64,000 nt of DNA from Halorussus caseinilyticus (GTDB lineage Archaea; Halobacteriota; Halobacteria; Halobacteriales; Haladaptataceae). Shown one piece after another: positions 4,102 through 7,527 of the stretch (positions are counted from its first letter, which is position 1; every line of letters begins with the position of its first letter). The stretch spans positions 3,224,001-3,288,000 of the forward strand of contig NZ_CP119809.1 of assembly GCF_029338395.1 (NCBI RefSeq), read 5' to 3'. A program made the position numbers and the translations under genes. The notes beneath the pieces were generated by a model that saw only the letters and a list, made by a program, of their open reading frames with translations, did no database searches and was not told the DNA's origin.

Positions 4102-4174
4102 GGGACCGTGGGGTAGCTTGGTATCCTTTCGGCCTTGGGTGCCGATAACCCCGGTTCGAATCCGGGCGGTCCCA
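4102..4174 (+). tRNA. tRNA-Pro(UGG)
   Basis: A complete cloverleaf of 73 nt. Acceptor arms GGGACCG and CGGTCCC pair fully, with discriminator A. The anticodon stem TCGGC/GCCGA (4129-4133/4141-4145) encloses the loop CTTGGGT with anticodon TGG at 4136-4138. The T stem CCCGG/CCGGG encloses TTCGAAT. There is no intron and CCA is not encoded, as usual in archaea. A TTTACA box about 33 bp upstream (4070) may be its promoter. Confidence 0.95.
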
Positions 4175-4392: not shown

Positions 4393-7300
4393 ATGGCTCG
4401 CGCGGAGAATACGGAGCTGATTGACGATTTCGAGCAGTTCTACCGGCGGTACTACAGCGACGAAATCGGGGAACTCGCCCAGAACTACCCGAACGAACAG
4501 CGGTCACTCTACGTCGATTGGACCGACCTCTATCGGTACGACGCGGACCTCGCGGACGACTTCATCTCCCAACCCGAACAGCTACAGGAGTACGCCGAGG
4601 AAGCACTCCGACTCTACGACCTCCCGGTGGACGTGAGTCTCGGGCAGGCCCACGTCCGCATCGAGAACTTGGGCCAGCAGACCGACATCCGGGACATCCG
4701 CGCCCGACACGTCAACAACCTCGTCAGCGTGCAGGGCATCGTCCGGAAGGCGACCAACGTCCGGCCCAAGATTCAGGAGGCCGCCTTCGAGTGCCAGCGA
4801 TGTGGCACGCTGACCTACATCCCCCAGAGCGGCGGCGACTTTCAGGAACCCCACGAGTGTCAGGGCTGTGAGCGTCAGGGACCGTTCCAGATAAACTTCG
4901 ACCAGTCGGAGTTCGTGGACTCCCAGAAAATCCGCGTTCAGGAGAGTCCCGAAGGACTCCGCGGCGGCGAGACGCCCCAGAGCATCGACGTTCACATCGA
5001 AGACGACATAACCGGCGAGGTGACGCCCGGCGACCACGTTCGGGTCACGGGCGTTCTCCACCTTGAACAGCAGGGAAGCGGACAGGACAAGTCCGCCGTC
5101 TTCGACGTGTACATGGACGGGATGTCCGTGACCATAGAGGACGAGGAGTTCGAGGACATGGACATCACCGACGAGGACAAGAAGGAAATCGTCGAACTCT
5201 CCCAAGAAGACGACATCTACGAGCAGATGGTCGATTCGATGGCTCCGGCCATCTACGGCTACGAACAGGAGAAGTTGGCGATGATTCTCCAGTTGTTCTC
5301 GGGCGTGACCAAGCACTTGCCCGACGAGTCCCGAATCCGCGGGGACCTCCACATGCTGTTGATAGGCGACCCCGGCACGGGTAAGTGCGTTCGTGGTGAC
5401 ACGAAAGTCACGCTCGCGGATGGCACCGAGAGACCTATCGGCGAAGTCGTCGAGTCGAACCTCACCGACCCCGAACCGATAGACGACGGCGTGTACCAAG
5501 AGGTCGATATTCCGCTCCCGTCGATGGACGACGACGGAACGCTCGTCCAGAAGCGTGCGACGAAAGTCTGGAAGCGGGAAGCGCCCGACAAGATGTATCT
5601 CATTCGGACGACGAGCGGAACTGAACTCGAAGTTACGCCGTCTCATCCGCTGTTCGTGCAGTCTGGCGGTACCTTCGATGCTGTTCGGGCAGAAGACCTT
5701 CGGGAAGATGATTTCGTCGCAACACCCCGAACGCTCCCGATTGAGGAAGACGACACACTCAACGTAGACTACAGACGGTCGAAGTCCCACAACGCCGTCC
5801 GTCTCGAATCTAATCGTAAGTCCGCCAGTGCCGAAGCAGTAGATGAGGGAACGAAAAACACCAACGCTGACGTAATCCCTGCCCTGTCCGACGAACTTCG
5901 GCGTCTTAGAGAGTCGCTCGCGCTTTCCCAGTCCGAGTGTGGACTCGCCCGTTCTACGTACCAACACTACGAACGCGGCGACCGAAACCCGAGTCGGAAG
6001 AGCCTAAAAACTCTCGTGACGGCGTTCGAGAACCGCCTCGAACGACTCCGCGAACTCAGTCAGAAGGTCGAAGAGGGTGACTGGGAAGCCGTCGAAACGG
6101 CGCGCCGAGAACTGCATCTTTCCCAGCAGGAGTTGGCCGACGGTATCGGTGTCTGTCAGCGGTCGGTCAGCCTCTACGAACAGGGTGACGTTGCTCCTGA
6201 CGGTGGCCGTGTGACTGACGCAAAAGGCGTAGTTCTAGACCGGATAGACGAAGCACTTCGCGTCGAGAACGACGTACAGTCACTACGGTCACTTGCTGAT
6301 AGTGACGTTACGTGGGACCAAATCGAATCCATCGAGTCCGTCGAACCGGACTACGACTGGGTGTACGACCTCGAAGTCGCGGATACGCACAACTATCTCA
6401 CGAACAACGTCGTCTCCCACAATTCTCAAATGCTCTCCTACGTACAGAACATCGCGCCGCGGTCGGTCTACACCTCCGGGAAGGGCAGTTCGAGCGCGGG
6501 ACTTACCGCTGCAGCTGTTAGAGACGACTTCGGCGACGGCCAGCAGTGGACCCTCGAAGCGGGTGCGCTCGTCCTCGCCGACAAGGGCGTCGCGGCGGTG
6601 GACGAGTTGGACAAGATGGCACCCGACGACCGCTCGGCGATGCACGAGGGTCTCGAACAGCAGAAGATTTCGGTCTCGAAGGCGGGCATCAACGCCACCC
6701 TCAAGTCGCGTTGCTCGTTGCTCGGCGCGGCAAACCCCAAGTACGGCCGGTTCGACCAGTACGAACCCATCGGCGAGCAAATCGACCTCGAACCCGCACT
6801 CATCTCCCGGTTCGACCTCATCTTCACCGTCACCGACCAACCCGACGAGGAACACGACAAGCGACTGGCCGAACACATCATCCAGACCAACTACGCGGGC
6901 CAACTGAACACCCAGCGCACGGAGATGAGCGCGCCGAACATCTCCGAGGAGGAGGTCCGTAGCCAGACCGAGGAAGTCGCGCCCGCAATCGACGCCGACC
7001 TCCTGCGCAAGTACATCGCCTACTCGAAGCGCAACTGCTTCCCGACGATGACCGAGGAGGCCAAGCGGACCATCGAAGACTTCTACGTGGACCTCCGGAC
7101 GAAAGGTGCCGACGAGGACGCGCCGGTGCCCGTCACGGCCCGGAAACTGGAGGCGCTGGTCCGTCTCTCGGAGGCCAGCGCCCGCGTTCGCCTCTCGGAC
7201 GAGGTTGAGACCGAGGACGCCGAGCGCGCGGTCGAAATCACGCGCTCGTGTCTCCAAGACATCGGCGTGGACCCCGAAACCGGGCAGTTCGACGCCGACG

Positions 7301-7527
7301 TGGTTGAAACTGGGCAATCGAAGTCCCAGCGCGACCGCATCAAGAACCTCAAGCAACTCATCAGCGACATCGAGGAGGACTACGAGGAGGGCGCGCCCGT
7401 AGACGAAGTGATGGCCCGCGCCGACGAAATCGGGATGGAGCAGTCGAAGGCCGAACACGAGATAGACAAACTCAAACAGAAGGGAGAGGTGTACGAACCC
7501 TCGACCGACCACCTGAGGACGACGTAG
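4393..7527 (+). CDS. mcm: MCM replicative helicase precursor with an intein in Walker A
   Basis: The replicative DNA helicase that forms the hexameric motor at the fork. The precursor has 1044 residues; removing the intein (residues 332-677) leaves 698, the normal haloarchaeal MCM length. The N-terminal domain holds the zinc ribbon CQRCG...CQGC (about residues 134-158). The AAA+ core has Walker A GDPGTGK-S split by the intein, Walker B DELDKM, sensor 1 (AANPKYG) and the arginine finger in ISRFDLIF. A C-terminal winged helix follows. Because the intein sits immediately after the catalytic lysine, helicase activity depends on splicing. A short conserved gene follows with one base of spacing, so the two are likely co-transcribed. 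Confidence 0.97.
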   Translation: MARAENTELIDDFEQFYRRYYSDEIGELAQNYPNEQRSLYVDWTDLYRYDADLADDFISQPEQLQEYAEEALRLYDLPVDVSLGQAHVRIENLGQQTDIRDIRARHVNNLVSVQGIVRKATNVRPKIQEAAFECQRCGTLTYIPQSGGDFQEPHECQGCERQGPFQINFDQSEFVDSQKIRVQESPEGLRGGETPQSIDVHIEDDITGEVTPGDHVRVTGVLHLEQQGSGQDKSAVFDVYMDGMSVTIEDEEFEDMDITDEDKKEIVELSQEDDIYEQMVDSMAPAIYGYEQEKLAMILQLFSGVTKHLPDESRIRGDLHMLLIGDPGTGKCVRGDTKVTLADGTERPIGEVVESNLTDPEPIDDGVYQEVDIPLPSMDDDGTLVQKRATKVWKREAPDKMYLIRTTSGTELEVTPSHPLFVQSGGTFDAVRAEDLREDDFVATPRTLPIEEDDTLNVDYRRSKSHNAVRLESNRKSASAEAVDEGTKNTNADVIPALSDELRRLRESLALSQSECGLARSTYQHYERGDRNPSRKSLKTLVTAFENRLERLRELSQKVEEGDWEAVETARRELHLSQQELADGIGVCQRSVSLYEQGDVAPDGGRVTDAKGVVLDRIDEALRVENDVQSLRSLADSDVTWDQIESIESVEPDYDWVYDLEVADTHNYLTNNVVSHNSQMLSYVQNIAPRSVYTSGKGSSSAGLTAAAVRDDFGDGQQWTLEAGALVLADKGVAAVDELDKMAPDDRSAMHEGLEQQKISVSKAGINATLKSRCSLLGAANPKYGRFDQYEPIGEQIDLEPALISRFDLIFTVTDQPDEEHDKRLAEHIIQTNYAGQLNTQRTEMSAPNISEEEVRSQTEEVAPAIDADLLRKYIAYSKRNCFPTMTEEAKRTIEDFYVDLRTKGADEDAPVPVTARKLEALVRLSEASARVRLSDEVETEDAERAVEITRSCLQDIGVDPETGQFDADVVETGQSKSQRDRIKNLKQLISDIEEDYEEGAPVDEVMARADEIGMEQSKAEHEIDKLKQKGEVYEPSTDHLRTT
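5386..6423 (+). mobile_element. MCM intein, 346 residues, with two XRE-type HTH motifs and no visible LAGLIDADG
   Basis: The self-splicing protein element starts at Cys332 (block A, CVRGDTKVTLADG) and ends at His676-Asn677 before extein Ser678. Block B is VTPSHPLF with Thr415 and His418. Blocks F and G are YDLEVADTHNYLTNN and VVSHN. The splicing residues are therefore all present. The region between the splicing halves should hold a homing endonuclease. Instead it holds two Cro/C1-like helix-turn-helix units, at about residues 497-545 (LSQSECGLARSTYQHYERG) and 569-603 (LSQQELADGIG). I found no pair of LAGLIDADG helices. Homing ability is therefore probably lost. The insertion site is the well-known CDC21/MCM P-loop site. 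Confidence 0.93.

Follow-up and report, generated by a model that had tools for sequence, protein, structure and literature searches.

A nuclease-less MCM-a intein of Halorussus caseinilyticus that keeps a tandem HTH accessory domain

According to the homing-cycle model, inteins decay after fixation, and to our knowledge the intermediate forms of this decay have rarely been described. One insertion site in the replicative helicase MCM, immediately following the Walker A lysine, is known in the haloarchaeal literature as MCM-a (CDC21-a; PMC10643990). Full-length haloarchaeal inteins at this site (PMC10643990, PMC4071816; also those of the congeneric genomes G074 and G102) hold a LAGLIDADG core of 183 aa. 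The 346-aa intein of Halorussus caseinilyticus described here shares with them the site, a homologous Hint domain and the same HTH pair joined to the C-terminal Hint half, but is without the core. At the other end stand the mini-inteins without a homing endonuclease (HEN-less), namely bare haloarchaeal forms of 173-206 aa and the inteins PabCDC21-1 (6rpp) and PhoCDC21-1 (6rpq). Here the site, the absence of a nuclease and the Hint fold are common to both; the mini-inteins, however, have no HTH pair, whereas the 346-aa intein keeps ~145 residues of it and is thus more than a Hint with a short linker. HTH-like accessory domains have also been described in the TliVMA (7qss) and PI-TkoII (PI-PkoII; 2cw7) inteins, in TliVMA between the nuclease and the C-terminal Hint half, and the isolated domain of TliVMA reportedly does not raise the overall affinity for DNA (PMC8966425). 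These inteins keep the nuclease, unlike the present one, in which two Cro/C1 HTH units occur without it. The PhoVMA intein is likewise archaeal and past the homing stage (PMC8966425), but there the nuclease fold is kept and the catalytic residues are lost, whereas here the whole nuclease is deleted. No description of nuclease-less inteins that retain HTH units was found in the literature searched, which leaves out most subscription journals.

The window, that is, the whole stretch of 64,000 nucleotides that was analysed, contains mcm as a single ORF encoding a precursor of 1044 aa (Table 1). The intein occupies residues 332-677 of this precursor, with the junctions GDPGTGK/CVRGD and VVSHN/SQML, and its removal leaves 698 aa, the size of MCM in intein-free congeners. 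The Intein_splicing model (PF14890) extends over residues 8-346 of the intein in the Pfam scan, and by inspection the splicing residues are intact: C1, T84-P-S-H87 in block B, D328 and H335 in block F, H345-N346, and the serine at +1. Together with the Hint fold of the AlphaFold2 (AF2) model, which matches PhoCDC21-1 (6rpq) with a Z score of 26.4 over 159 residues, these features identify a class 1 intein at the level of sequence and fold, while the GDPGTGK/C site and the homology of the Hint in tree and alignments assign it to the MCM-a allele. A tRNA-Pro gene (TGG) is located directly upstream of mcm, at positions 4102-4174.

Table 1. Features of the mcm intein locus in the window, and nuclease-less MCM-a inteins that keep HTH units
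Feature	Genome	Position	Strand	Basis
mcm gene (replicative helicase) with in-frame intein	Halorussus caseinilyticus	4393..7527	+	ORF translation; Pfam MCM, MCM_OB, MCM_lid, MCM_WH_arc
MCM-a intein, 346 aa, directly after Walker A lysine	Halorussus caseinilyticus	5386..6423	+	PF14890 E 5.8e-25; AF2 pLDDT 85.8
N-terminal half of Hint, residues 1-118 (C1, TPSH block B)	Halorussus caseinilyticus	5386..5739	+	alignment; AF2 pLDDT mostly >90; 6rpq/6rpp Z 26/25
Residual linker once flanking the putative nuclease, residues 119-159	Halorussus caseinilyticus	5740..5862	+	alignment; AF2 pLDDT <50 at 124-158
Putative deletion scar, residues 141-143, ESN	Halorussus caseinilyticus	5806..5814	+	alignment with L005/L006; LAGLIDADG_3 in L005
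HTH1, residues 162-222, Cro/C1 type, recognition helix ~189-197 (RSTYQHYER)	Halorussus caseinilyticus	5869..6051	+	HTH_3/HTH_31; AF2
HTH2, residues 233-275, Cro/C1 type, resembles P22 C2 repressor	Halorussus caseinilyticus	6082..6210	+	second HTH_3 stretch; P22 C2 match
Tail helices, residues 276-305, linking HTH2 to C-terminal splicing half	Halorussus caseinilyticus	6211..6300	+	AF2 helices 273-291, 294-305
C-terminal half of Hint, residues 306-346 (blocks F and G, HN/S)	Halorussus caseinilyticus	6301..6423	+	alignment; AF2
HTH-keeping nuclease-less intein, 346 aa	Halorussus caseinilyticus			
HTH-keeping nuclease-less intein, 339 aa	G148			
HTH-keeping nuclease-less inteins, 315 aa	Halorhabdus G119 and G270			
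HTH-keeping nuclease-less intein, 321 aa	Halovenus salina G342			
HTH-keeping nuclease-less intein, 321 aa	G368			
HTH-keeping nuclease-less inteins, 306 aa	G012 and G039			
HTH-keeping nuclease-less intein, 268 aa, one HTH as in 471-aa relatives	Natronorubrum halalkaliphilum			

Profile searches matched HTH_3 (PF01381) to two stretches of the intein (E 4.1e-15), and HTH2 additionally matched the P22 C2 repressor (E 2.4e-4). Fold matches are weak but consistently of the XRE type (Z 7-8 over 53-63 aa) and, with the HTH_3 profile, place both units in the Cro/C1 (XRE, HTH_3) class. Both are well preserved, with no deviation at any of the near-invariant columns, 17 in HTH1 and 10 in HTH2 (0/27 in total). 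Pfam, AF2 and the alignment agree on the position typical of an HTH accessory domain (ACD), between the nuclease site and the C-terminal Hint half.

By contrast with the HTH pair, no LAGLIDADG model reached E<=1 in the Pfam scan of the 346-aa intein, and no other nuclease matched the interval. This negative is meaningful because the 529-aa intein of a congener (L005) returned LAGLIDADG_3 at E 6.3e-33 when scanned in the same way; with this positive control, the idea of a nuclease hidden in the interval was rejected. The preliminary description, made from the letters of the window, had reported a 346-residue intein in the Walker A motif of MCM with intact splicing residues, two Cro/C1-like HTH units and no LAGLIDADG pair, and Pfam and inspection bear this out. 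Nuclease-bearing relatives of the intein are not of the same length: in the congeners G074 and G102 the same MCM-a intein measures 529 aa, and the extra 183 residues, which include both LAGLIDADG motifs, map between residues 140 and 144 of the shorter form, that is, at the tripeptide ESN. Identity to these two inteins is 74-79% in the N-terminal Hint and 72-80% in the HTH and C-terminal part. The simplest reading is an in-frame loss of ~549 bp that removed the catalytic core and left the HTH accessory domain in place, because the 529-aa congeners have the LAGLIDADG pair at the scar. The earlier proposal that the catalytic core was lost while the DNA-binding units survived is thereby strengthened by two congeners.

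The AF2 model, made with an alignment of 43 inteins, depicts a Hint fold and a folded HTH pair, both confident, and a disordered stretch at residues 124-158, around the scar. The HTH module modelled alone reached a pLDDT of 93.4. Superposed on the nuclease-bearing PI-PkoII (2cw7) and TliVMA (7qss), the model aligns over 225 and 219 residues, respectively, compared to 157-159 for the Hint alone.

MCM-a inteins fall into several size classes: ~529 aa (nuclease and two HTH units), ~471 aa (nuclease and one HTH unit), 173-206 aa (bare forms), and a class with HTH units but no nuclease. Members of the last class were found in nine genomes representing ~7 lineages, including that of H. caseinilyticus (Table 1). 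Their junctions differ between lineages, all lying a short way upstream of HTH1, and in Halorhabdus the junction is marked by a CGCGA repeat, which occurs at both ends of the deletion in a full-length congener. On a Hint-only tree, seven changes are needed to explain the HTH-keeping label, of which well-supported branches make at least four unavoidable, and HTH-keeping forms sit at the tips, in at most two species each. The differing junctions and the nesting among full inteins rule out a single common origin of all HTH-keeping forms; comparison of the sequences suggests instead that the same nuclease loss took place independently in about six other lineages.

Most nuclease-less forms at the site are without the HTH pair too, the bare inteins amounting to 54 distinct sequences. 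Some of the surveyed inteins were collected by HTH-based searching, so that the numbers of HTH-keeping and bare forms can be compared reliably only within family f8 (28 full, 28 bare and one HTH-keeping intein) and within the genus of the window, in which the MCM-a site is empty in 11 of 18 genomes, full in two, bare in four and HTH-keeping in one, the 346-aa intein. No HTH-keeping nuclease-less sister of this intein was found in its genus. Since the genus also has bare forms, and many more are known outside it, the HTH pair is not generally needed at the MCM-a site. The site displays every state: empty, occupied by a full intein, by one with HTH units but no nuclease, or by a bare one. All four are represented in one genus.

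With regard to the history of the site within the genus, dS between congeners is ~1.0-1.5 for the intein and ~0.65-0.7 for the flanking MCM exteins (L001, L005, L006), and this excess suggests separate acquisitions of the MCM-a intein. One congener and Halorussus halobius have an identical 182-aa MCM-a intein.

The sequences establish the missing core, the intact splicing residues, the intact HTH pair and the recurrence in other lineages. What they amount to is best captured, with modest confidence on our part, by a splicing-only, non-mobile intein in which the HTH pair is kept most likely for its fold and not for reading DNA. A homing intein at MCM-a would have lost its LAGLIDADG endonuclease through the ~549 bp in-frame deletion, while keeping the tandem HTH accessory domain that separates the scar from the C-terminal splicing half; the product would still splice out of MCM but would no longer home. 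In the predicted fold, the HTH pair remains a folded module, and helices connect it to the C-terminal Hint half. Any segment inserted into an essential precursor presumably has to fold without impairing splicing, in which case the HTH fold would be under selection, and the pair may brace the Hint halves.

Data on selection come from Halorhabdus, in which the two HTH-keeping inteins share their junction and are mutually closest. Their HTH region has a dN/dS of 0.13 (16 nonsynonymous and 34 synonymous differences, dS 0.39; computed by NG86, which is rough on near-saturated pairs), similar to the 0.145 of the Hint, and full-length congeners are alike in this respect. At least there, the HTH module appears to have been constrained after the loss of the nuclease, unless the two species lost the latter in separate events at the CGCGA repeat; the estimate of post-loss purifying selection is from this one species pair. 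The pair L149/L150 is too close for a useful dN/dS. The 346-aa intein and its nearest full relatives are near saturation (dS ~1 or more), and a three-point estimate gives its HTH branch no higher rate than the branch of a nuclease-bearing congener (dN ~0.04 vs 0.09). The constraint seems to act on the HTH fold. In the recognition helix of HTH1, states unseen elsewhere among 105 full inteins were found in four of eight nuclease-less HTH-keeping inteins (H194Q twice, S190E/T191K and E196K) against 8/105 full ones (Fisher p 0.004), a post hoc comparison on few and partly related sequences; the same comparison revealed no excess of unprecedented states in the Hint.

Alternatively, the HTH pair could be a passive relic, the nuclease having been lost recently and the HTH units awaiting deletion, so that the intein would represent a transient step towards the bare form of 173-206 aa. 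We regard this as possible, although less likely than retention for the fold. The intact HTH pair of the 346-aa intein may reflect merely a recent loss, and the confinement of HTH-keeping forms to the tips, their small number beside the bare forms, both overall and in family f8, the decay of HTH2 in L004 and the changes in half of the recognition helices are all consistent with decay in progress. However, a dN/dS of 0.13 after a shared loss in Halorhabdus is far below the neutral value, and HTH units have been kept in seven lineages, with the junctions falling shortly before HTH1, which also speaks against a relic. The preliminary description had suggested that the leftover HTH is more than a passive relic; this holds up in part, for Halorhabdus, in which the module is under purifying selection after the loss, whereas in the 346-aa intein the loss may be recent.

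The preferred reading, a pair kept for its fold, also has to be weighed against a role in DNA binding. It had been proposed that the leftover HTH may go on binding mcm DNA or may control splicing; in that case mcm expression or splicing would be regulated through the pair, by the excised intein or by the precursor. Conditional splicing is known for other archaeal inteins, and both HTH units of the 346-aa intein are intact, the recognition helix of HTH1 included, and confidently predicted to fold. Nevertheless, we obtained no positive evidence for this proposal and consider it unlikely: the recognition helix is the very part that drifts in nuclease-less relatives, insertion of the intein splits the full homing site, bare forms are present in the same genus, and the isolated TliVMA domain is reported to add no overall affinity for DNA (PMC8966425). 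Even less probable, in our judgment, is an exaptation in which the pair would bind the mcm locus or replication DNA, couple splicing, and with it helicase supply, to the state of the DNA, an arrangement that selection would maintain in several lineages of haloarchaea. Continued homing of the 346-aa intein, by an undetected nuclease in the interval or by another nuclease of the cell, is very improbable, for although the genome has other inteins with LAGLIDADG-like segments, the closest relatives of the core in it are only 26-33% identical and lie in other ORFs, MCM with its 698-aa extein has no second intein that could carry the 346-aa intein along, no nuclease model matches the interval in spite of a strongly matching control, and AF2 fills the interval with two HTH units and a disordered linker only. 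A viral or plasmid origin was likewise rejected, with no match in phages or plasmids and only weak partial matches in viral contigs.

The nuclease has been lost repeatedly while the DNA-recognition domain stayed, and at least one species pair shows purifying selection on that domain; the role of an accessory domain after homing, whether in splicing, in DNA binding or in nothing, is thereby directly testable.

Two other inteins of the genome lie in ORFs whose host genes were judged by eye: L003 (G000:C1:99356-102874), in an RNA polymerase A''-like ORF, has a C-terminal part 34% identical to the HTH/Hint-C part of the 346-aa intein, and L002 (G000:C1:3020889-3024212) is in an ORF resembling the DNA polymerase II large subunit. 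MCM ORFs of ~1521 aa in three genomes (G058, G156 and G118; L034, L035 and L036) combine a bare MCM-a intein with a further insert, which matches the HTH part at 33-38% and is probably a second, nuclease-bearing MCM intein. Finally, the tripeptide DGG is present in 53 of the 54 distinct bare inteins (e.g., L033-L036, L232-L259, L264-L291), within an otherwise unalignable linker, compared to 1.35 expected by shuffling; it is mostly preceded by Ala or Thr and is written in 21 different codon spellings. DGG is also found just after HTH2 in most HTH-bearing forms, and in the 346-aa intein it corresponds to residues 272-274 (positions 6199-6207).
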